A stretch of 32,500 nucleotides of DNA from Streptococcus danieliae (lineage in GTDB: Bacteria > Bacillota > Bacilli > Lactobacillales > Streptococcaceae), in assembly GCF_009767945.1 (NCBI RefSeq), contig NZ_WSRS01000005.1, positions 1-32,500 on the forward strand. The letters are read 5' to 3'. Of the stretch, positions 10,026-30,924 are shown one piece after another. Under the pieces are notes generated by a model. That model was not told where the DNA came from and ran no database searches. It worked only from the letters and a program-made list of their open reading frames with translations. The first letter of the stretch is position 1; every line of letters starts with the position of its first letter. A program made the translations under genes and the position numbers.

Positions 10026-10100
10026 AAATATATAATATTTTGATAGCGTTTTCGTTTTTGTGAAACGTTATTGTCTCTTGGTCTTCATAGGGAGGTTCTT

Positions 10101-12707
10101 ATGAGAAAAAAACATCTTTATCGTACATTGCTACTCTCCAATATCCTGTTAGTGCTCGCCAATCCTGATTTTCATGAAGGAAAAGTCAGCGCCGATGAGA
10201 AAGTCAACTCAGCTGAGACGGAGCTCCAAGTGGAAATTTCCGAAACACCGCTAGATGATGCTGCCAATTTCCAGATCCCAGAAGCCAATCCTTACACAGT
10301 TCCGCCTAGCTTACCCCAAGAAGCACCGAAAAGCGTCGAAAACAATACAACAACTAACTTGGACATTCAAACAGTTCCCCAATCAAATGAAGTTGAATTC
10401 GTTACGGAGACTGCAATAGGAACAAATCCTGATAAGGACATAGAGAAGACTGCTGATAGGGATACAGATACAAAACTTTCCACAAGCGAAAATCTAGTTC
10501 CCAACCGTCCTTTCCGTAGAGTGTCAAATAATGATTCTGATGATATAGATCCGAAATTCGAAGAAAAAGTCCAGCAGTACCTAACCAATCTGACACCAGA
10601 GGAACACCAATTACTACAAGCAAGTCCTGATCTAGACAGTAAGCGGAAGATTTTTGAAGACATTCTTGTTCGGCAAATTAATGAAGAATACAGCCTCAAA
10701 GAACTGGAAGAATTCAAGAAAACCCTAACTGAGCAACAAGTAGCCGAGCTCGAACAAGCTTCTAATCTAGTCGCATTTGAAACAACACTCAAAACTTTCC
10801 ACCAAACTGCCCAAGCCCAACGGGACTTTGAAAATCTTCTCGATCACTTAATCTTAGAAAGTACGGAAGAAGAATTTAAACAACTGCAAGCAGCCAGTAG
10901 CAATCCTGACAGGTTTACCCAGACCATCCTGGAGCTTTCAGCTCAAAAAGCACAAACGACAACTTCCACAAAACCGTTTCGAGTTGCAGCAGCCATTCCA
11001 CTCCTTATAAAAGCAGCACCTTATATTATTGCTGGAGCAAAAGCCTTAGGGTCAGTCCTAGTAGCCAAAGGTCTCGCCTACTTGGGGTCTCAGGCAATCA
11101 ATTATAGCTATCAGCAAGTCCAGGCTCAAGCCGCTCAAAGACAGCGAGCTCAGTATGCTGCTATGGCCAAAAGTTATACCAACCAACAGGCCAGAATCCA
11201 AGCCATCAGCCAAGCTCAGAGCTATACCTATACGGCACCTGGCCAGTATGCGATTCAGCATTACACCTATCAGCCAACTCCTTCCTATGGCTATAGCCCT
11301 AGCTATTCCTATGCTCCACAATCTGTTGGCAGCTATGCTGCCCCTACACGCGCCTACGGACAGGTTGCCGCCAATGTCTTTTATTATACAGGTGTTTCCA
11401 AGCTCCCAGTTTACAATCTATCCGGAGTCAAACACACCGTCCTCCCCAATGAATCCGTTTGGTCGATTTCTCAAAAATACAATATTCAGATGAATGATCT
11501 AGTTATTTGGAATGGACTGACAAACGGACTAATTCATCCAGGGCAAAAGGTTGTCGTCAAACCGGACACCCTCATCAATAATGGACTCCAACACCAAGTC
11601 CTCCCCAATGAATCTGTCTGGTCCATTTCCCACAAATATGGGATCGCAATGGCTGATTTTGTAGCCTGGAATAATATCCAACAAAATACGATTCATCCAG
11701 GGCAAAAAGTCTATATCAAACCAAAATCTTGGGCCCAAAAAGCTCGATATATTGTCAAAGCAGGGGACACTCTTTGGAGAATTGCTAAGGAACACGGGGT
11801 CACAATTGATGATTTAGTCAGATGGAATAAAGTTTCAAACTTCACCATCCACCCAGGGGATGCCCTCATCACCACACAACCTCCCATCAATCCAACACCA
11901 GCTGTCATCACCAAACAACCCTTACCGCAATTAGGTGCACTCTATACAGTTAAAGCAGGTGATTCCATCTGGAAAATTGCTCACGACCACAAGATCACCA
12001 TGCAGGAACTGCTAGACTGGAATCAGATTAGCAATCAAACCATCCACCCCGGGCAACAGCTCGTCACCCAAAAACCAACAAGTCCTGCTGCAAGCACTGC
12101 CAGCAGCTCCTACACGGTCAAAGCAGGCGATTCGGTCTGGAAAATTGCCCACGATCATGGCATCTCCATGGATGATCTTGTGAAATGGAATAATATCTCC
12201 AATTTCACAATCCACCCTGGACAGCAACTCACTGTCCAAAAACCAACCACTGCATCCACAATTACAGCAGACAAATCCTATACGGTCAAAGCTGGAGATT
12301 CAGTTTGGAAAATTGCCAACGACCATGGTATCTCCATGGATGACTTAGTGAAGTGGAACAATATTTCCAACTTTACCATCCACCCCGGAGAAGTCCTTAT
12401 TCTCAAACAACCAACAGAAGCACCCTATTTCGGACTCACAACCCATACCGTTCAAGCCGGTGAATCCGTCTGGCTCATCGCTCAGAAATATGACATCACC
12501 ATGGATGAACTGGTGAAATGGAATAACATTTCCAATTTCGCAATCCATCCAGGACAGAGGGTGATAACTGGGCGTAAACCAACAAATGCTGAAGCTAGAG
12601 CACAGGCTAAAAAGCTAGGTTACACAGAGTATAAAGGTACTGAAAACTCACGCAATGCATTAATATTTAAGGGGACCTCTAAAAACCCCAGTTTTTCTTC
12701 AAATTGA
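10101..12707 (+). CDS. Secreted 7-LysM protein; polymorphic toxin truncated by MITE
   Basis: An 868-aa product from ATG 10101, chosen because GGAGG is at 10091-10095. Residues 1-33 form a Sec signal peptide with a likely cut after 'KVSA'. About 34-290 is charged, with helical coiled-coil-like stretches. About 292-330 is a hydrophobic Ala/Leu/Ile segment. About 360-425 is a Tyr/Gln/Ser/Pro-rich linker. Seven LysM repeats run from about 444 to 825, each ending near 'IHPGQ'; they should bind peptidoglycan. After 'ARAQAKKLGYTEY' the frame enters a 99-bp MITE at 12671 and stops inside it. Removing the MITE and one TTAA continues the frame to a stop at 12925-12927 (907 aa) through a toxin-like C-terminus. 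So this is probably a wall-associated toxin that has lost its warhead. The LysM part may still be made. Three candidate immunity genes follow. Confidence 0.85.
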   Translation: MRKKHLYRTLLLSNILLVLANPDFHEGKVSADEKVNSAETELQVEISETPLDDAANFQIPEANPYTVPPSLPQEAPKSVENNTTTNLDIQTVPQSNEVEFVTETAIGTNPDKDIEKTADRDTDTKLSTSENLVPNRPFRRVSNNDSDDIDPKFEEKVQQYLTNLTPEEHQLLQASPDLDSKRKIFEDILVRQINEEYSLKELEEFKKTLTEQQVAELEQASNLVAFETTLKTFHQTAQAQRDFENLLDHLILESTEEEFKQLQAASSNPDRFTQTILELSAQKAQTTTSTKPFRVAAAIPLLIKAAPYIIAGAKALGSVLVAKGLAYLGSQAINYSYQQVQAQAAQRQRAQYAAMAKSYTNQQARIQAISQAQSYTYTAPGQYAIQHYTYQPTPSYGYSPSYSYAPQSVGSYAAPTRAYGQVAANVFYYTGVSKLPVYNLSGVKHTVLPNESVWSISQKYNIQMNDLVIWNGLTNGLIHPGQKVVVKPDTLINNGLQHQVLPNESVWSISHKYGIAMADFVAWNNIQQNTIHPGQKVYIKPKSWAQKARYIVKAGDTLWRIAKEHGVTIDDLVRWNKVSNFTIHPGDALITTQPPINPTPAVITKQPLPQLGALYTVKAGDSIWKIAHDHKITMQELLDWNQISNQTIHPGQQLVTQKPTSPAASTASSSYTVKAGDSVWKIAHDHGISMDDLVKWNNISNFTIHPGQQLTVQKPTTASTITADKSYTVKAGDSVWKIANDHGISMDDLVKWNNISNFTIHPGEVLILKQPTEAPYFGLTTHTVQAGESVWLIAQKYDITMDELVKWNNISNFAIHPGQRVITGRKPTNAEARAQAKKLGYTEYKGTENSRNALIFKGTSKNPSFSSN

Positions 12708-12927: not shown

Positions 12928-13039
12928 AGATTGCAGATTAAACCTCTTTTCAATAACAAAAATGCCACAGAAATAGAGAATAATTATTTCAATGTAGTCC
13001 TTGAGCAATAAACTTAAGATAATTAAAAGAGGATCCTAT

Positions 13040-14155
13040 ATGCCAGCATTATCCATTTACAAATACGACAAAAGCAATCCCAACTATGGTGACGATTGGA
13101 CTGCTATATCTGATATTTGGGATAGCTTTTATGGAACAGTATTGACCTTAGAAGACTATCTTGAAGTCGAAAACCGGTATGTAAAAACTATCGAAAAGAT
13201 TCTACGATTATTTAACATAGATAGCTTAGAAGTAAGAGAACTATCAAAATATTTTAGTGTGCAGTTTCAAAAAAGAGAAAGCTTGCTGAATCCTAAGCAA
13301 TGCCAATTATCTCAGCAACTTGATAACGGATTGTTACTGACTGGAGAAGCAATCTCCGAAGTTGCACGCTTCAATCTCCGAGAAGCAGTCTGGTGCCGTC
13401 TCTACAGCCCCAATCTTCAAGTCCATTTTGGCTATGATTATTATATGTATGTCCAAAGTATGGACGAGGAAAAACTCGAGCAATGTAAACAGATTATCCG
13501 TGAAATGGATCTTTACTATCAAGAATTTTCGATCTCCCCTCATCAAATGGAGGAAGAAGATATTGCTCCTTTTACCTACACTTGGGGCGATGGTCAGACC
13601 AATCCACCAGGAGACTATCATCATGACCTTCGAATTTCCAAGGATGACCCTCTGAATCGCAGCTACACCGAATGGAGTCATTTTGACGAAATCGAAAACG
13701 GACTGGATTGGGAAGAGTACCAAGCTGTGGAACAAAAATACCTCCAGCTAGTTTTAGACTTTTTGGAGTTCTTCCAGATAAACCACCTAGCCGTTAATGG
13801 AGGTCTAGAATTTACCAGCATTCAGGAACTCGGTGTCCCTGCCCACTACTTCTCTCCCCAAGAAGAAGCACTATTCCAACAATTGCAGGAATATGACGAG
13901 ACTGTAGAAGATTGGACGATCGAGTCATTTATGATCCCAAAAGAAGATTTTACGACCCTCTTCCAATTAATTTTCAAAGGTAGATTTTATGCTTGGATCA
14001 ATACAGATTCTATCACCATCCAATTTGACTCTTCCTACCGACTCTACCTCTCCTTCTATGGGCACAAAAAGGAAGTCCAGCAACTGGTTGAAAAACACGG
14101 GCTTTATTGGCAGGAGCGTCAACCACCTTATAAAAAAGCAGTTGGTTTCAGATAA
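13040..14155 (+). CDS. Candidate immunity protein, paralogue 1 (intact)
   Basis: A 371-aa acidic, soluble protein without signal peptide or membrane segment. Start is ATG 13040 after AAAGAGGA; the frame is open further upstream to a TTG, but the paralogues start at the equivalent 'MPALSI'. It is an internal duplication. The N-half (about 10-160: 'SNPNYGDDWTAISDI' ... 'FGYDYYMY' ... 'LYYQEF') resembles the C-half (about 197-362: 'DDPLNRSYTEWSHFDEI' ... 'SSYRLYLSF' ... 'LYWQER'). The hinge carries 'YTWGDGQTNPPGDYHHD'. I do not recognise a named family. Its place just after a toxin-domain gene, in three tandem copies, is typical of immunity genes, so toxin neutralisation in the cytoplasm is inferred, not shown. 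Confidence 0.75.
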   Translation: MPALSIYKYDKSNPNYGDDWTAISDIWDSFYGTVLTLEDYLEVENRYVKTIEKILRLFNIDSLEVRELSKYFSVQFQKRESLLNPKQCQLSQQLDNGLLLTGEAISEVARFNLREAVWCRLYSPNLQVHFGYDYYMYVQSMDEEKLEQCKQIIREMDLYYQEFSISPHQMEEEDIAPFTYTWGDGQTNPPGDYHHDLRISKDDPLNRSYTEWSHFDEIENGLDWEEYQAVEQKYLQLVLDFLEFFQINHLAVNGGLEFTSIQELGVPAHYFSPQEEALFQQLQEYDETVEDWTIESFMIPKEDFTTLFQLIFKGRFYAWINTDSITIQFDSSYRLYLSFYGHKKEVQQLVEKHGLYWQERQPPYKKAVGFR

Positions 14156-14172
14156 TTAAGAGAAGTTTCTGT

Positions 14173-15390
14173 ATGCCTACATTACTTATTCACAAATACG
14201 ATAAAAGCAATCCCAACTATATTCAAGATTGGATATCTATTTCAGATATCGGTAAAATATTTTATGGAACTGTATTAACGTTAGACAAATACCTGAAAAT
14301 AGAAAACTCTTATATTCAAACCATACATGAAATCCTCGATTTTATGAAAATCGATACCCTGGAAATTCGAGCTATTGAGAAAGGATTTAGTCTACAGGGC
14401 ACCTCTAAAAACTAAATTTCTGAAAATCTAAATGTTGATTTATCAAGGTTTGAGTGATTAAATTTGAAGAAAAACTGGGGTTTTTAGAGGTCCCCTACAA
14501 TACATTAGAAAAAATAGCCTAATTAATGCGAAACAAGCTTCCTTTTACCAAATGCTAGATAACGGAGTATATTTAACACAAAATGGCATTACTGAGGCCA
14601 TTAAACTCAATCTACGTGAAGCTCTCTGGTGTAGACTATATAATCCTAAAATTGAAGTTAACTTTGGCTATGACTATTACATGGGAATTACTGTTGCTGA
14701 ACAGGAAAAGATTGAAATTTTCAAAAAAATTATCGAAAAACATGGACTCTACTGGCAAGAATTTACTACTTCTCCTTTCAAACTAGAAGAGGAATTTAAA
14801 AAAGCTAAGACATTTTTTTGGGGCGATGGGCAAACCAATCCATCAGGGGACTATCACCATGACCTCCGTATTTCCAAGGATGATCCTCTGAATCGCACCT
14901 ATACCGAGTGGAGTCATTTTGACGAAATCGAAAATGGACTGGATTGGGAAGAGTACCAGGCTGTGGAACAAAAGTACCTCCAGCTAGTTTTAGACTTTTT
15001 GGAGTTCTTCCAGATAAACCACCTAGCCGTTAATGGAGTCTAGAATTTACCAGCATTCAGGAACTCAGTATCCCTGCCCACTACTTCTCTCCCCAAGAGG
15101 AAACACTATTCCAACAATTGCAGGAATATGACGAGACTGTAGAAGATTGGACGGTCGAGTCATTTATGATCCCAAAAGAAGATTTTACGACCCTCTTCCA
15201 ATTAATTTTCAAAGGTAGATTTTATACTTGGATAAGTACAGCTTCTATCACCATCCAATTCGATTCCTCCTACAGGCTCTACCTCTCCTTTTATGGCCAC
15301 AAAAAGGAAATCCAGCAACTGGTTGAAAAACACGGACTTTATTGGCAGGAGCGTCAACCACCTTATAAAAAAGCAGTCGGTTTCAGATAA
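14173..15390 (+). pseudogene. Candidate immunity protein, paralogue 2 (broken by MITE and frameshift)
   Basis: This starts 17 bp after paralogue 1 and is homologous along its length to paralogues 1 and 3. Two lesions are visible. A MITE at 14397-14495 with TACA duplication interrupts it after 'GFSLQ'. One G is missing near 15036-15042, where paralogue 1 has GGAGGTCTAG and this copy has GGAGTCTAG, creating a TAG. Removing 103 bp and restoring one base gives exactly 371 codons plus stop, the same as the other copies. From about 14900 to the end it is nearly identical to paralogue 1, while its first half is more diverged, suggesting recombination between copies. Present pieces: 14173-14415, 14552-15043, 15118-15390. 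Confidence 0.9.
14393..14499 (-). mobile_element. 99-bp MITE, copy 2, with TACA target duplication
   Basis: The element is 14397-14495, inverted relative to copy 1, flanked by TACA at 14393-14396 and 14496-14499. The single internal difference from copy 1 lies near its middle-left (TTGAATC against TTTAATC). Such near-identity implies recent movement. Excision with one TACA rejoins the host codons as ...S-L-Q-Y-I-R.... Confidence 0.92.
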
Positions 15391-15407
15391 TTAAGAGAGG
15401 AGCTTAT

Positions 15408-16523
15408 ATGCCTGCACTTTCCATTCATAAATACGATAAAAGTAATCCCAACTATGTTGACGATTGGATTTCTATATCCGATATTGGAGCTAGCTTTTAT
15501 GGAAAAGTATTAACCTTAGAAGACTATCTTGAAGTCGAAAACCGGTATGTACAAACTATCGAAAAGATTCTAACATTATTTAATATCAATAGCCTTGAGG
15601 TACGGGAGTTAGAAAAATCTTTTAGTCTGCAGTTCCAAAAAAAGACCAGTTTGCTGAATTCTAACCAGTGTCAATTATATCAGCAACTTGATAATGGATT
15701 TTTACTAACTGGAGCAACAATCTCTGAGCTTATCCGATTCAATCTACGCGAAGCCGTCTGGTGCCGTCTCTATAGCCCTGATCTTCAAATCCACTTTGGC
15801 TATGATTATTATATGTATGTCCAAAGTATGGACGCAGAAACACTCGAGCAGTGTAAGGAGATTATTCGTAAAGAGAATCTTTACTATCAAGAATTTGCTT
15901 TCTCCCCTTATCAAATGGAGGAGGAAGACATCCCTATCTTTACCTACACTTGGGGTGATGGGCAAACTAACCCACCTGGGGACTACCACCATGACCTGCG
16001 TATTTCCAAGGATGATCCTCTAAATCGCACCTATACCGAGTGGAGTCACTTTGACGAAATCGGACATGGGCTGGCTTGGGAAGAGTACCAAGCTACAGAA
16101 CAAAAATACCTGCAGTTAGTTTTGGAAGTTTTAAACTTTTTCCAAGTAACCGAAATAACCGTCAGTGGAGGTTTAGGATTTACCAGTGTTCAAAAACTCG
16201 GAGTCCCTGCACATTATTTCTCGCCTCAAGAAGAAACACTGTACCAAAAAATATATGATTACCGTGAAAATATCGAGGATTGGACAATTGAATCCTTCCA
16301 CATTCAAAAAGAGGATTTCTCAACCCTCTTCCAGATTATTTTCAAAGATAGACTTAGTACTTGGATCATTACCGATCCCCTCACCATCCAATTCGATTCC
16401 TCCTACCGGCTCTACCTCTCCTTCTATGGCCACAAAAAGGAAGTCCAGCAACTGGTTGAAAAACAGAGCCTTTACTGGCAGGAGCGGCAACCGCCCTACC
16501 ATGAGACTGTCGATTTTAGTTAA
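15408..16523 (+). CDS. Candidate immunity protein, paralogue 3 (intact)
   Basis: A 371-aa protein with the same two-half architecture as paralogue 1 ('MPALSIHKYDKSNPNY', hinge 'YTWGDGQTNPPGDYHHDL', C-half 'SSYRLYLSFYGHKKEVQQL'). GAGAGGAG precedes the ATG; it begins 17 bp after paralogue 2, the same spacing as between 1 and 2, so the three arose by unit duplication. It differs from paralogue 1 mainly in the third quarter (about residues 215-310). A strong terminator follows, so the LysM gene and the three paralogues may form one transcript ending at 16568. No recognised Pfam family; immunity is inferred from position. Confidence 0.75.
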   Translation: MPALSIHKYDKSNPNYVDDWISISDIGASFYGKVLTLEDYLEVENRYVQTIEKILTLFNINSLEVRELEKSFSLQFQKKTSLLNSNQCQLYQQLDNGFLLTGATISELIRFNLREAVWCRLYSPDLQIHFGYDYYMYVQSMDAETLEQCKEIIRKENLYYQEFAFSPYQMEEEDIPIFTYTWGDGQTNPPGDYHHDLRISKDDPLNRTYTEWSHFDEIGHGLAWEEYQATEQKYLQLVLEVLNFFQVTEITVSGGLGFTSVQKLGVPAHYFSPQEETLYQKIYDYRENIEDWTIESFHIQKEDFSTLFQIIFKDRLSTWIITDPLTIQFDSSYRLYLSFYGHKKEVQQLVEKQSLYWQERQPPYHETVDFS

Positions 16524-24634: not shown

Positions 24635-25927
24635 TTAGAGTCCCAAACGATTAAAAATAGCTTCAACTCCGCTGGTGTAATAGTCTGGGTTAAAGACTTC
24701 ATCAATTTCCGCTGGAGTGAGGTAAGAAGTGATGGCAGAATCTTCTAGTAGCAACTGTTTAAAATCAACCTGTTGGTCCCAGGCCTCAGCCGTTTTGGGC
24801 TGAACCAAGTCATAGGCGGCTTCCCGCGTCATTCCCTTTTCAATTAAAGATAATAAAACACGCTGGCTATAAATCAAACCAAAGGTTGCGTCCATGTTCC
24901 GGCGCATATTATCAGGGAAGACCGTCAAGTTCTTAACGATGTTCCCAAAACGATTGAGCATGTAATCCACAAGAATGGTTGAATCCGGAGTGATGATCCG
25001 CTCAGCAGAAGAATGGGAAATATCCCGCTCATGCCAAAGCACAACATCCTCCATGGCTGTCACCATATGTCCCCGCAAGACACGGGCCAATCCGGTCATG
25101 TTCTCAGAGCCAATCGGGTTGCGTTTATGAGGCATGGCTGAACTACCTTTTTGCCCCTTGGCAAAGAACTCCTCCACCTCACGTTGCTCCGACTTCTGGA
25201 GGCCACGAATCTCGGTTGCCATACGTTCAATCGAAGTCGCAATCAGGGCTAGACAATTAAAGTAATCCGCATGCAGATCCCGTGGCAGAACCTGAGTGGA
25301 AATTTCCTGCGGTCGAATGCCTAAACGCTCGCAGACATACTCCTCCACAAAGGGTGGAATGTTCGCAAAGTTCCCAACCGCACCAGAAATTTTACCAGCT
25401 TCAACACCCTTAGCGACTGCCTCAAAACGCTCCATGTTCCGCTTCATCTCACTGTACCAAGTTGCCAGTTTCAAGCCAAAAGTCGTTGGCTCCGCATGAA
25501 CACCATGGGTCCGCCCCATCATAATGGTGTATTTATGCTCCCGCGCCTTATCGGCAATAATATTGGTAAAGTTTTCGAGATCACGGCGAATAATATCGTT
25601 AGCCTGCTTATAAAGATAACCGTAAGCTGTATCCACCACATCTGTTGAAGTCAAGCCAAAGTGGACCCACTTGCTTTCCTCACCCAAAGACTCTGATACG
25701 GCCCGAGTAAAGGCCACCACATCATGGCGAGTTTCCTGCTCAATCTCCAAAATTCGCGCCACATCAAAGCTAGCCTTCTCGCGCAACAGGGCCACATCTT
25801 CCTTGGGAATCTCCCCCAACTCAGCCCAGGCCTCAGCCGCTAAAATTTCCACCTCTAACCAGGCCTGATACTTATTTTCCTCAGACCAAATGGCTCCCAT
25901 TTCAGGTCGCGTATACCGTTCTAACAT
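24635..25927 (-). CDS. purB: Adenylosuccinate lyase
   Basis: A 430-aa homotetrameric enzyme acting twice in purine synthesis: SAICAR to AICAR and adenylosuccinate to AMP, releasing fumarate. The fumarase/aspartase signature '[11 protein letters not shown]' (with the catalytic-loop serine) is clear, as are '[11 protein letters not shown]' and '[13 protein letters not shown]'. Length is normal. TAGGAGGAACCT precedes the ATG. In many streptococci purB follows a long de novo purine cluster; here the CHAP gene and plsX lie upstream instead. No other pur gene is in the window besides prs. Confidence 0.98.
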
Positions 25928-26024
25928 AGGTTCCTCCTACAAGTGTTCTCTTACTAGTTTACCTTATTTACAACTTTTTCTCCAGTCATTCCGAATGAAT
26001 AGAAAAAGAACCAAGGAGGTGCCC

Positions 26025-27287
26025 ATGTATCCAGCAACCCCTATTCAAGCAGCGATCCAGCCCAACCAATCCATCCAGATCACCCCTGTAACTGCCCAGC
26101 AGGTCGAGCTTCTTTTCCCTATGGTCAAACAAGAAGGACCTCTGACCCTGCACATCCAAGCTAGTCAAGATCCAAAGAGCTGGCACTACTATCCCCTACC
26201 AGAAACCAAGCAGACTCCAAGGCTAAGCTTAAACCTCAAAGACTTCCCCTCACAGGCTGGTCCCTACACCTACCAACTCAGAACTAGCCAGGGACAGATT
26301 CTCCAAAGTGGAAGCTTAGCCCTCCCTGCAAACCCAAACCAAGATTTCAAACCCCGGACCCAGTTTTCCCCTGCTCAACTGGATCAAGGACTCCTGCTCT
26401 TTCAGCTCAAACCTGCACCAGCCAGTCCAGCCATTAAGCAAGCTCGCTTGCAGATTAGACAAGACCACCAAGAGCCCAAGACCTACCCTCTAAGCCTAGA
26501 AAATACAGCTGGAAGTTTCCAAACCACGATTGATCTCAACCAAGAACTAGCTGGGAGTCCCATCCAAGCCCAGATTGAAATCAGCTTTGATCAAGGACAA
26601 AGCCAAGTCTATCCATTGGCTGACTACCAAATCCCACTCGACAAACTAAAACCACAAGTCCAAGTCCAGCAGGAAGATCGGACTCTGCATGTAGTAATCT
26701 CCAGAGCTCAGACTCTGGAACAAGCCCAGCTTCTCCTGAATCATCAAGCCTATCCCCTGCAACAAATCAGTCCAGCCCTCTACCAGCTGAGCTTGGACCT
26801 GCCCACTACTGAGACAGCTGACATCCAACTCCAGGCCTTCCAACAGGGTCACGAACAAATTCTCTACCGTAAGACCTTTCAACCAGTCCCTAGCTTCAAT
26901 CAACCACCGGAGACCTCAACAAATACAGCGGATCCCTTTCCCGCTATCTACCCCGCACCCACCTATCCCGTCGGCCAATGCACCTGGGGCGTCAAACGCT
27001 TAGTCCCCTGGGTTGGTGACTGGTGGGGTAACGGTGGCCAATGGGCCCAGTCTGCCCAATCCCTCGGTTTTGCCACTGGCTCAGAACCCCGCGTCGGTGC
27101 CATCGCCTGCTGGGACGATGGCAGCTACGGCCACGTAGCCCTGGTCACCCACGTTAATTCCACCCAAGCCATCCAGGTCAAAGAAGCCAACTATAACGGT
27201 CAGGGAAGTATCCGCAACTATCGTGGCTGGTTTGACCCCAGCCGCGGCTGGGGTCAGTTGACCTATATTTACCCGCCGGGGAGATAA
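26025..27287 (+). CDS. CHAP-domain amidase/peptidase-like protein without signal peptide
   Basis: A 420-aa protein from ATG 26025 (AAGGAGGT at 26013-26020). Residues 1 to about 290 are Gln/Pro-rich and look like two or three beta-sandwich repeats, perhaps the GBS Bsp-like type (not certain). Residues about 308-420 are a CHAP domain with Cys319 in 'VGQCTWG', His370 in 'YGHVALV' and Asn389 in 'EANYN'. CHAP domains cut peptidoglycan cross-bridges or the amide to MurNAc. There is no signal peptide or membrane segment at this start, and the frame upstream lacks one too, so export would need another route, or the protein acts on lysis. No holin is beside it. It lies between divergent purB and convergent plsX. 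Confidence 0.8.
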
Positions 27288-27330
27288 TATAAAAAGGTTT
27301 TTGGGATTCCATCCCAAAAACCTTTTTATA
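27288..27330. terminator. Bidirectional terminator, 19-bp perfect stem
   Basis: Positions 27288-27306 pair perfectly with 27312-27330 around a 5-nt loop, between the converging CHAP gene and plsX. Confidence 0.92.
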
Positions 27331-27335
27331 ACGTC

Positions 27336-28343
27336 CTATTCTTTCTCAACCTGATCAGCTTGGAAAACTTCCTTGGCTTGGTCAACAATCTGACTCTCCA
27401 GAATGGAGGCAACTTGTTTGATTGTGTAGTAAATCGACTTGGCATCACTGGAACCATGGGCCTTAACAACGGGAGCCTTCACACCAAAAAGCATGGCTCC
27501 TCCAGCTTCAGTATAGTCCAGACTTTGACGCATTGCTTGAAGACTCGGTTTCAACAACCAGGCTCCCAGCTTGGCCCGTAGCCCTCCAGCTAAAATAGTC
27601 GATTTTAACTGGCTAAGAATACCCAAGGCTGTTCCCTCCATCGTCTTGAGGACTGCATTGCCCGTAAAACCATCTGTCACAACAACATCCGCTACCTGGC
27701 TCATCAAATCCCGAGCTTCTACATTACCAATAAAGTTCAAATCTTCTCGAGCTGCCAGCAGCTCGTAAGCCTCCTTCCGCAAGGAGTCTCCCTTACCAGC
27801 TTCTGAGCCATTATTCAGCAAACCAACTCGAGGATTCTGGATTCCTCGAACCTGACTAGCATAGAAAGAGCCCATTAGGGCATACTGTTCCAAATGCTTG
27901 GGACTACTTTCCGCATTGGCCCCCAAATCCATCATCACAAACCCTTGCCCATTTTGACTAGGTAAGGTTGTCAGCAAACCTGGCCGGTCAATTCCTTTGA
28001 TCCGGCCGATAATAAAGAAAGCAGCCGCGAGCAGGGCACCGGTATTACCAGCAGATAAAAGGGCATCCGCCTGGCCATCCTTAACTGCCTTAGCCGCCAA
28101 GACCATGCTGGCATCCTTTTTGCGCCGAATAGCCCGCGTTGGCTCATCATCCCCTTCAATTTTTTCCTTGGTATGAACAATCTCAATTCGATCAGCATTC
28201 CCAATTAGTGGCAAAATCTGATCTTGATCCCCATACAACTGAAACACCACATCGGACAGCTCATCACGAGCTCTCAAAACACCTTCAATAATGGCCTGAG
28301 GCGCAGCATCGCCCCCCATAGCATCAATGGCAATACGTTTCAT
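27336..28343 (-). CDS. plsX: Acyl-ACP:phosphate acyltransferase
   Basis: A 335-aa enzyme that makes acyl-phosphate from acyl-ACP, the first committed step of phosphatidic acid synthesis with PlsY. The start '[15 protein letters not shown]' is typical; ATG 28343 has GAAGGAGAG before it, and the longer frame upstream lies inside recO. Other family marks are '[12 protein letters not shown]' and '[17 protein letters not shown]'. It overlaps the recO stop by 4 bp (ATGA), so the two are translationally coupled. acpP, which commonly follows plsX in streptococci, is absent; a terminator comes straight after. Confidence 0.97.
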
Positions 28344-29104
28344 TTTCTCTCCTTCAACAAACTCCCCCACTCATCTAGGGAATCTAGAAATTTTTTGGCC
28401 TTCAATTGAATGCCGACATATTCTTGGTAAAAAGTATCAAGAGTCTGACGCAAGTCAGCCTTGGTTTCTTTAGACAAACGGATGCTCTCTAATTCCTCCA
28501 GGGAAACAGCCTGAAACCGCTCCAAAAGAAAGAGGCAGTTAGGCTTGAAATGCGCCCGATGGACATCCTGCTCATAATGGTCTGGGCACAAGACCCCATC
28601 ATAGACAAAACTATAATCAAAGGGCTGCCCTGACCGATGGCAAAAACAACATTCCGACAGCACCAGACGAGTCCCAAACCGATCTAAAATCTGCATTTCA
28701 AAAATCAAGGTCAAGACCTCATAATCCAAACCTGCTTCCATCAAGTCCAAAGTCTTGGTAACAAATTGAAAAAGGGCTGGATCTGCTTGCCCATCCTGAA
28801 TACTAGCATCCGCCAAAGCCAATACATAGGAAGCATAAGCCAAGGAATAGATATCTCCCTGAATCTTCGGATAGGCCATCTCGACACTGACTTCATCAAT
28901 ATAACCCAAGCCCTCCTGCCGCAACTTAAAAATATAATCTCCAACAACCAAGGGCTGGATCTGAGCCAAACGCTGGGACTTCTCTACATTGCGGACAAAA
29001 AACATCCGCTTCCCAGCCTTCTCTGTAAAAATTTTAACCAGACGATCCTTTTCCCGATAGGGACGATTGTAAAGAACCAAGCCCCTGGACTGAACTGTCT
29101 CCAT
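28340..29104 (-). CDS. recO: DNA repair protein RecO
   Basis: A 254-aa recombination mediator that, with RecR, loads RecA onto SSB-coated DNA. The N-terminal OB-fold ('[21 protein letters not shown]') is followed by a helical domain with a zinc-like cluster, 'CCFCHRSG' near 150 and 'LCPDH' near 175. Length is normal. AAGGTGG precedes the ATG by 7 nt. It overlaps plsX (ATGA). The gap upstream to prs (279 bp) contains repeat copy C and the prs terminator, so recO is probably transcribed from its own promoter in that gap. Confidence 0.95.
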
Positions 29105-29383: not shown

Positions 29384-30352
29384 CTATTTGTTTTTGTTCA
29401 AGGCAAACAAACTAGACAACGGACGTTTCTCATGAATCCGAATAATAGCCTCTGCCAACAGATTTGCCGTTGAAATCTGAACAATCTTATCAATCAAGCG
29501 ATCTTCTGGGAGATCAATCGTATCCAAAACAACCAACTTCTTAATGGCTGAATTTTGAATATTATCCATCGCTGGGCCTGATAATACTGGGTGAGTACAG
29601 CTCGCATAAACTTCAACTGCTCCCGCTTCTTGTAAGGCATCTGCAGCATGAGCAATCGTACCAGCCGTATCAATCATATCATCAATGAGGATACAAGTCT
29701 TCCCTTCAACCTTCCCGATAATGTTCATGACTTCACTGGTATTCATCTTATCAACAGAACGCCGTTTGTCAATAATGGCAATCGGAGTTCGTAAAAACTC
29801 AGCCAATTTCCGAGCCCGAGTCACTCCCCCATGGTCTGGACTGACAACAACATAGTCATCCCCAACCATTCCCCGACGTTCGAAGTAATCTGCAATTAGT
29901 GGCGCCCCCATCAAGTGGTCCACGGGAATGTCAAAGAATCCCTGGATTTGAGCGGCATGCAAATCAATAGTCAAGAGACGGTTAACCCCTGCCACCTGCA
30001 GCATATCTGCCACAAGCTTGGATGTAATCGGCTCCCTAGCTCGTGCTTTCCGGTCCTGACGGGCATAGCCATAATAAGGCATAACCACGTTCACAGATTC
30101 TGCACTCGCCCGTTTCAAAGCATCTACCAAAATCAGAATTTCCATGAGATTGTCATTTACAGGTGAGCTCGTTGATTGAAGAATATAAACATGTTTCCCA
30201 CGAATTGATTCCTCAATATTTACTTGGATCTCCCCATCTGAAAACTGACGCACACTGGATTTTCCCAATTCCATACCAATCGCAGCTGCCACACGCTTAG
30301 CCAGGTCCTGATTTGACGACAGAGCAAATAATTTTAAATCAGAAAAAGACAT
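29384..30352 (-). CDS. prs: Ribose-phosphate pyrophosphokinase
   Basis: A 322-aa hexameric enzyme converting ribose 5-phosphate and ATP to PRPP, the precursor for purines, pyrimidines, His, Trp and NAD. The ATP-site '[12 protein letters not shown]', catalytic '[11 protein letters not shown]' and PRPP loop '[11 protein letters not shown]' are all intact. Length is normal. GGAGGG precedes the ATG. It has its own promoter (30383-30411) and terminator. In several streptococci pcsB lies between mreD and prs; here only 65 bp separate them. Confidence 0.98.
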
Positions 30353-30382
30353 GATTCCCTCCGCATTTTTTTCCCTTCTTAT

Positions 30383-30411
30383 ATTTTAAACCTTTTCAAC
30401 TCTTTTTTCAA
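30383..30411 (-). promoter_or_regulatory. Promoter of prs
   Basis: Minus strand: -35 TTGAAA (30411-30406), exactly 17 bp, -10 TAAAAT (30388-30383), about 30 bp before the prs start and just after the mreD stop. Confidence 0.65.
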
Positions 30412-30417
30412 TCGAAA

Positions 30418-30924
30418 TCAAGATTTGGCTAGGAAAAAACGAAAGAGGGGAGTTACCAATAAACTTAAAAGGAGGTTGACCGCTAAACTCGGCGCCAAAC
30501 TTAGGGCCACAAAATCCGTCCAATCCAGGCTGACCATTCCCATCAAGGTTGCAGCCCCAAAGTACAGGCCTTCAAACAGACTAATCAACAAAACAGTTGC
30601 CAATAAGATCGTCCAGATATTCCGTAAAAATAAACGGTTAAAACTGGTTACAAACAAAACACAGAGGGGAAGCAGAACCAAGAGAACTCCTAGGGAATGG
30701 AAAACATAGCTATCCAAAAGCAAACCGGCAATCAAACTTGCTCCTAATAAAGCAAAGGTTGAGAAAAAGACCGAAGCAAATAGCAGAAATAGCAAGCTAC
30801 CATGAACAACAGGATACCAATGATTGGGAATTAGATAGGACACAAAAAGGGACAATTGTTGATCTACAAACCAGAGAAAGAGAAAGAAACCAAGGATTTG
30901 AAGAAGATTCCAAACTGCTTTCAT
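30418..30924 (-). CDS. mreD: Rod shape-determining protein MreD
   Basis: A 168-aa very hydrophobic protein with about five membrane segments, as expected for MreD, which with MreC directs peripheral (sidewall-like) peptidoglycan synthesis in ovococci. Sequence conservation in this family is low; the call rests on topology, length and its place right after mreC, whose stop it overlaps (TAATG). Streptococci lack MreB, so MreCD act without the actin-like filament. Confidence 0.9.
   Translation of the reverse strand: MKAVWNLLQILGFFLFLWFVDQQLSLFVSYLIPNHWYPVVHGSLLFLLFASVFFSTFALLGASLIAGLLLDSYVFHSLGVLLVLLPLCVLFVTSFNRLFLRNIWTILLATVLLISLFEGLYFGAATLMGMVSLDWTDFVALSLAPSLAVNLLLSLLVTPLFRFFLAKS

Follow-up and report, generated by a model that had tools for sequence, protein, structure and literature searches.

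The 32,500-nucleotide stretch of Streptococcus danieliae DNA analysed here (the window) carries an ORF with a C-terminal CHAP domain between purB and plsX, antisense to both genes (Table 1). Among the surrounding genes, ruvB, purB, plsX, prs and mreC were confirmed by NCBIfam models, and gntR, recO and mreD were named by eye. Between the ORF and plsX lies a strong hairpin, probably a bidirectional terminator that was not reported by a consensus terminator scan, and the gene is therefore probably monocistronic. The coding strand is rich in C: within the CHAP-coding part, C occupies 53% of third positions (60% in the orthologue from Streptococcus sp. 121, locus L038), and the GC content of this part is 61%, compared with 45% for the whole window. 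The C-richness of both genes (26025-27287 in the window and 5001-6290 in L038) exceeds that of four other plus-strand genes examined.

Table 1. Features of the locus and of the remainder of the window (positions are those of the window)
Feature	Position	Strand	Basis or remark
purB, left flank of the lytF locus	24635..25927	-	NCBIfam TIGR00928
Putative sigma-X (ComX) promoter	25974..26007	+	T-run 25975-25979; cin-box TCCGAATG 25990-25997, then AATA
Ribosome binding site AAGGAGG	26013..26019	+	sequence
Gene for a probable lytF-descended CHAP protein without signal peptide	26025..27287	+	420 aa
Predicted beta-sandwich repeat 1 (residues 16-101), degenerate Bsp-like	26070..26327	+	model; fold matches; at most 2.6 SD to LytF repeats
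Predicted beta-sandwich repeat 2 (residues 106-203), degenerate Bsp-like	26340..26633	+	model; fold matches; at most 3.5 SD; orthologue 4.9 SD
Predicted beta-sandwich repeat 3 (residues 205-292), degenerate Bsp-like	26637..26900	+	model; 5.6 SD; orthologue 2.4 SD
CHAP domain (residues 308-420)	26946..27284	+	Pfam PF05257, NCBIfam, solved PcsB structures
Cys319; His370; Glu387; Asn389	26979-26981; 27132-27134; 27183-27185; 27189-27191	+	CHAP residues
Hairpin between the CHAP gene and plsX, probable bidirectional terminator	27288..27330	.	-25.1 kcal/mol, z -8.2
plsX, right flank of the lytF locus	27336..28370	-	NCBIfam TIGR00182
Tandem copies of a protein of ~370 residues	13001-14155, 14552-15043, 15408-16523		ORF list, by eye

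The gene starts with ATG behind its ribosome binding site, and the first 16 residues of the product are not signal-like. Within residues 1-45, the highest Kyte-Doolittle mean over 10 residues is 0.94 in the window protein and 0.65 in L038, whereas it is at least 1.61 in all 13 of the Bsp+CHAP loci compared, which have hydrophobic, signal-like N-termini; the measure is crude, starts were chosen by ribosome sites first and hydrophobicity second, and the 13 loci are not independent, since five belong to the S. australis group and L093 and L094 are near-identical. When 54 distinct CHAP relatives were screened in the same way, five fell below 1.6. These were L038 itself, three loci (L101, L104 and L029) in which an upstream TTG or GTG start gives back a signal-like N-terminus, and L014, which is truncated by the end of its locus and is resolved by the longer stretch L111. 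As far as this crude hydropathy goes, the window protein lacks the signal peptide of secreted LytF-type enzymes.

The start of the ORF is secure. L038 starts at the same place, with an in-frame stop immediately upstream, and the promoter-like box described below ends a mere 23 bases before the ATG of the window gene. The original prediction of a CHAP protein without signal peptide, its start fixed by the ribosome site, is borne out by the Pfam match and the hydropathy of the N-terminus, and by the arrangement in L038. It had also named an upstream signal-bearing start or a sequencing error as the finding that would overturn it, and this check was run. A signal peptide hidden in this manner is extremely improbable: the window does have an in-frame extension reaching ATG codons at 25995 and 25890, but neither adds a segment that looks signal-like by eye, the extension overlaps purB on the opposite strand and is interrupted by a stop in L038, and this independent orthologue has no signal peptide either. 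A hidden start was therefore rejected.

CHAP (PF05257; residues 312-389, E=3e-18) is the sole Pfam family over its cut-off in the window protein. The best NCBIfam match, which covers the C-terminal part only, is PcsB (NF046104) at 189.8 bits, below the family cut-off of 450 bits, and the nearest solved CHAP structures are the PcsB chains 9r6w (E 1e-42) and 4cgk (E 3e-42). In the 4cgk alignment, Cys319, His370 and Glu387 pair with positions 292, 343 and 360, which are given as the catalytic triad of pneumococcal PcsB in the available part of PMC13126162. Because of this match, Glu387 is more likely to be the third catalytic residue than Asn389. The Cys319-His370-Asn389 pattern that had been called intact is indeed present in all three residues, but its last member is less likely to be the third catalytic residue; Asn389 is conserved too, though outside the PcsB-type triad. 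As in LytF, the CHAP domain is C-terminal and has the catalytic Cys and His. It is 62-69% identical to the nearest LytF and PcsB domains, with no sign of an altered active site; the site is intact, and the protein is predicted to be an active enzyme. That the domain has taken up a cytosolic, non-wall role would fit a protein that has kept its active site but neither its export signal nor the Bsp motif; given the closeness to LytF and PcsB domains and the unchanged active site, we consider such a role very improbable, and no support was found for the non-wall substrate suggested earlier.

The position of the gene was compared with that of lytF in related genomes. In one relative (G009), a LytF gene with a signal-like N-terminus, Bsp repeats and a CHAP domain sits in antisense orientation between purH and purD; plsX comes ahead of purM, and purB and gntR lie beyond purE (plsX…purM-N-H–lytF antisense–purD-E…purB). 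A second genome (G024) has the same order from purM to gntR, plsX being outside the compared stretch. In the window, the CHAP gene is flanked by plsX and purB, with gntR and ruvB next in order; it is antisense to its neighbours and occupies the interval between plsX and purB that contains the purine cluster in G009 and G024. No counterpart of purH turned up in the genome at E up to 0.001, and the simplest account is therefore that the purine genes flanking lytF on either side were lost. In the available parts of the literature, lytF is tabulated as 0036 in a column that we take to be S. sanguinis (PMC5069739), and the lytF locus of S. constellatus is described as like that of S. sanguinis, with differences in lytF loci between species (PMC13278378). 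Moreover, a CHAP tree of 53 rows places the window gene and L038 with the S. australis LytF clade at moderate support (UFBoot 92, SH-aLRT 70), both on long branches. Descent of the window gene from lytF is well supported by these comparisons, and we file the gene as a lytF descendant rather than a LytF enzyme because the signal peptide is missing. The housekeeping setting noted in the original prediction is literally true, but this description overlooks the lytF locus and the competence-type promoter. Its observation that no phage genes lie nearby agrees with the ORF lists, checked by eye. Although endolysins often lack signal peptides, a domesticated phage endolysin has a negligible probability and was rejected, because the N-terminus, the only part searched, matched none of 50,697 phage records at E 0.01, a viral-contig scan with just two N-terminal peptide patterns confirmed no relative, and both locus and CHAP tree point to lytF.

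A structure model of the window protein contains three beta-sandwich repeats of seven or eight strands each ahead of the CHAP domain. The models are modest (mean pLDDT 59.8 for the window protein, and 63.3), and the CHAP part of the protein's own model is poor, mostly below 50; the fold matches therefore say only that residues 14-289 form a tandem beta-sandwich of Fn3/Ig type, and VIA-align Z values of 8.2-9.6 with an rmsd of ~7-17 Å indicate a common arrangement only. The repeats of a LytF model match the same Fn3/Ig kind of folds, and the model of S. australis LytF has two repeats with a similar strand order and a short helix at the WSE..GQDD motif. This signature is absent from the N-terminal repeats of the window protein, and PF08481 (Bsp) was found neither in the window protein at E up to 10 nor in the orthologue at E up to 1.

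Profile comparison of the N-terminus with LytF repeats by hhalign, based on shallow profiles, gave no useful probability (2.5%, E 0.019), and a shuffled-alignment test was used instead. Scores of the individual repeats are uneven. For repeat 3, the best partner is the final Bsp repeat of S. australis LytF, at 5.6 SD, a score reached by 0 of 500 shuffles. The corresponding values of the orthologue against LytF repeats are 2.1, 4.9 and 2.4 SD for repeats 1, 2 and 3, and the three repeats of the window protein score at most 2.6 SD against one another. The whole N-terminus exceeds all 500 shuffles when aligned with the LytF repeats of G009 (6.1 SD; orthologue 8.4 SD), and it reaches only 3.1 SD (orthologue 1.0 SD) with the S. 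australis repeats. LytF has 3-5 N-terminal Bsp repeats according to the available text of PMC13192262, and two are present in the S. australis LytF loci compared here. As modelled, the N-terminus probably consists of three degenerated Bsp-type repeats that lack the WSE..GQDD signature.

Upstream of the gene lies a 12-base box, TCCGAATGAATA, at positions 25990-26001. Five competence genes of the same genome have TNCGAATA boxes just upstream, which read TGCGAATA for comGA, TCCGAATA for ssbB, comEA and coiA, and TTCGAATA for radC, shortly 5' of their starts. Here, comGA and coiA are single Pfam-family matches in the genome, ssbB and comEA were picked by context from three SSB and two HHH_3 matches, respectively, and radC was recognised by eye. 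The box begins 35 bases before the start codon of the window gene and 22-32 bases before the first open start of comGA, ssbB, comEA and coiA; the interval is 13 bases in radC, the true start of which is probably further on. Three of the five genes have a T-run resembling that of the window site.

A 34-base matrix built from these five genes was scanned over both strands of the window and ranked the site first among 64,934 positions, with a score of 18.8 (runner-up, 11.5). In first-order simulated sequence such a score arises at ~1e-6 per position (2 in 2 million positions), a rate at which a few equally high scores are expected genome-wide, the scan having covered the window only. The five training sites, which are favoured by construction, all score higher (26.8-37.0). 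The 12-base pattern, composed after the window site had been seen, is not enriched genome-wide with up to one mismatch allowed (74 sites versus 74 for a reversed control); it has seven exact matches in the genome, and one of these (L050) has the same 12 bases with no gene start behind it. The 12-base box alone therefore proves nothing, and it is the matrix with its flanks that singles the site out. The 50 bases around the box are identical in S. danieliae STR (L037) and L038, yet they also lie upstream of purB, and for this reason the three-row DNA comparison was not counted as proof of the box. A comparable box is present in 10 of the 13 LytF-type Bsp+CHAP loci, two of these (L093 and L094) beginning with C and being counted only after the pattern was widened; L111, L098 and L100 have no box within 160 bases. 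In silico, the five-gene matrix places before the gene a cin-box of the kind found in LytF loci, with a G at position 8 that is off the published consensus, and we regard the site as a putative sigma-X promoter from which the gene would be expressed.

It is quite improbable that TCCGAATG is not a working sigma-X promoter, being instead a purB/PurR-type box or a chance or decayed site, and that the gene is not competence-regulated. The G at position 8 counts in favour of this, because all five training genes have A and published box forms have A or T at this position, as far as the available parts of these sources show: TACGAATA (PMC12029793), YTACGAAYW in S. suis (PMC7992943) and YNCGAATW in S. 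constellatus (PMC13278378). In addition, the site contains CCGAA and is located 62 bases ahead of the start codon of purB. The PurBox consensus is AWWWCCGAACWWT, but the site is without its CGAAC core, no CGAA[CT] occurs on either strand in the 200 bases before purB of G009 and G024, and genome-wide the PurBox pattern shows no enrichment, with 90 sites against 127 for its reversed control, which makes a PurBox reading weak. Moreover, T-run and spacing match those of the competence genes, and LytF relatives have boxes as well.

Residues 1-305 were found at E 1e-5 in only three of 284 Streptococcus genomes, namely the window genome, S. danieliae STR (99% identity) and Streptococcus sp. 121 (60% over residues 1-305). 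L038 is the sole full-length relative found in a clearly different species and is 65% identical overall. Relative to sp. 121, dS is 1.26 (about 1.3) and dN/dS is 0.183, with 0.187 for residues 1-300 and 0.115 for the CHAP domain. These values can be set beside 0.035, 0.041 and 0.054 for purB, plsX and recO in the same comparison; the window gene is 3.4-5.2 times higher than recO, plsX and purB. Both frames are open (420 and 429 codons in the window and L038, respectively) and differ by two in-frame gaps of 5 and 4 residues. Of 200 neutral simulations at 0.1 substitutions per site, 0.5% kept a stop-free frame, and none did so at 0.3 substitutions per site or more. In STR, besides four synonymous and three nonsynonymous differences, codon 45 is TAA, on a contig whose name states a coverage of 6.8. 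The gene is therefore dispensable in STR, or the base is erroneous.

Such a pattern raises the question of whether the gene is an early relict, in which loss of the signal ended the use of the enzyme and the gene is now decaying, possibly still transcribed in competence. The stop in STR, the lost Bsp signature, the restriction of the N-terminus to three genomes, a dN/dS above that of the neighbours and the off-consensus base in the box would all agree with decay. On the other hand, two divergent frames have stayed open with in-frame length differences only, the catalytic residues are kept, a neutral frame of such length would almost always contain stops according to the simulation, and a dN/dS of 0.18 that includes the N-terminus argues against long-dead decay. 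It seems that the protein is under constraint, and we consider a relict rather unlikely.

What a competence hydrolase does is relevant here. In the available part of PMC13192262, LytF is described as secreted, with Bsp repeats that bind septa and poles in S. gordonii; in S. sanguinis, LytF raises ComGC pilus display or extrusion and transformation, for which the catalytic cysteine is needed, and LytF added from outside does not restore transformation. LytA, according to the accessible text of PMC12029793, is an amidase without signal peptide whose transcription comes in part from the competence promoter ahead of cinA. Since the window protein has no Sec export, the job of LytF would be impossible for it in the usual way, and this lack together with the LytA precedent leads us to favour a cytosolic store that is released on lysis. 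From sequence and comparison we infer descent, promoter, absent Sec signal and constraint on the protein. In the lineage of S. danieliae and sp. 121, the purine genes around lytF would have disappeared, together with the Sec signal peptide and Bsp signature of its product, and the sigma-X-type promoter and an intact CHAP active site would have been kept. With the promoter kept and the signal lost, the protein is expected in competent cells, staying in the cytosol after translation, where it would be stored as pneumococcal LytA is. Upon lysis of the competent cell or breach of its membrane, e.g., by competence bacteriocins, the stored enzyme would reach the peptidoglycan and cut stem peptides, and more wall breakdown and DNA release would follow. 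Taken together, a competence-induced lytF descendant that is not Sec-exported and acts after lysis in the manner of LytA is, in our judgement, somewhat on the probable side of even; the LytA-like release step, taken by itself and drawn by analogy, falls somewhat short of even. Non-classical release or a lysis role, proposed from the sequence at the outset, are still the leading options, although the upstream sigma-X-type box and the descent from lytF had been missed.

The protein may also leave intact competent cells without Sec and do the wall job of LytF, e.g., by making holes for the transformation pilus. The S. sanguinis results on pilus extrusion and the lack of rescue from outside (PMC13192262, available part) would suit such non-classical export, as would the arrival of LytA at the envelope without a signal peptide (PMC12029793, available part) and the retention of promoter and catalytic residues in the window gene. 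However, neither inspection by eye nor hydropathy revealed an export motif in the N-terminus, the protein no longer has the Bsp signature, and we judge this route unlikely.

Release of a cytosolic store on lysis, the reading preferred here, would have a broader consequence, which we put forward tentatively and with less confidence than the release step: a secreted competence hydrolase may have become internal, made only in competent cells and released by lysis, as a LytA counterpart built from LytF in a lineage seemingly without PcsB and FtsX. If true, a dying competent cell would deliver a burst of wall-cutting enzyme along with DNA, by an independently evolved counterpart of LytA. The role of competence hydrolases is disputed between DNA release from victims, self-lysis and pilus exit, and for S. 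sanguinis the available part of PMC13192262 favours pilus exit, while noting that the roles differ in other species. With promoter and active site kept and Sec export lost, a LytF descendant would separate these roles, because a living cell should not be able to attack its neighbours with such an enzyme, barring a non-Sec route. It would also exemplify a wall hydrolase gene that was retained after losing its export signal. In the literature searched, which was available in part and included few subscription journals, we found no description of competence in S. danieliae or of a LytF without signal peptide.

Further comparison with known systems places the window protein closest to LytF of the S. 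sanguinis, S. gordonii, S. mutans and S. australis group. It shares with LytF the C-terminal CHAP domain, N-terminal repeats of similar predicted strand pattern, the purine-locus position (as in G009 and G024) and a sigma-X-type box, whereas it has no signal peptide and no PF08481 match, has lost WSE..GQDD, and has a repeat sequence that is hardly recognisable. The catalytic fold of LytA differs from CHAP, and LytA also differs by its choline binding; its likeness to the window protein concerns behaviour only and is a proposal. The shared traits of LytA of S. pneumoniae are those of a peptidoglycan hydrolase without signal peptide that is partly under a competence promoter (PMC12029793, available part). 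CbpD, CrfP and ScrM, described as CHAP enzymes of competence in other streptococci in the available parts of PMC13192262 and PMC7992943, differ in having a signal peptide and SH3b domains after CHAP. PcsB/GbpB has the closest solved CHAP domain, with the same Cys-His-Glu positions; a signal peptide, a coiled coil and the location between mreD and prs set PcsB apart from the window gene, which has none of them.

In the window and L038, mreD and prs are adjacent, and pcsB is missing from its usual place between them (30352-30418 in the window); G009 has it at that place. In the whole genome of the window, a draft of 244 contigs, no protein scores above the PcsB family cut-off, and the extracellular domain of FtsX (PF18075) has no match in it at E 0.001; in a control set without Streptococcus, PF18075 matched in 7 of 14 genomes, including Lactococcus lactis. 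The FtsX-PcsB division system may have been lost in this lineage, as far as the draft indicates. A protein encoded elsewhere in the genome (L002, 213-1523 on contig C161), with a signal-like N-terminus, an Ala/Glu/Gln-rich middle and a PcsB-type CHAP domain, gives 220 bits to PcsB over its positions 205-400 and is a candidate PcsB substitute. In addition, a ScrM-like hydrolase gene (L003, 766-2598 on contig C99; 411 bits, cut-off 400) encodes a YSIRK signal, CHAP and three SH3 stretches; it adjoins a transposase-like ORF, as judged by eye, and has no sigma-X box upstream.

Two other loci of the same genome (L046 and L048) have the sigma-X-like boxes TTCGAATAAATA and TCCGAATAAATA, which precede an ORF that resembles a double-glycine bacteriocin and the start of a gene that resembles a peptidase-type bacteriocin transporter, both judged by eye; the transporter-like frame ends after 31 codons. 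Elsewhere in the window, the protein of ~370 residues listed in Table 1 is present in three tandem, partly truncated copies within 13001-16523, and a large, probably exported protein with several tandem LysM-like repeats in its C-terminal half, recognised by eye, is encoded at 10071-12707.
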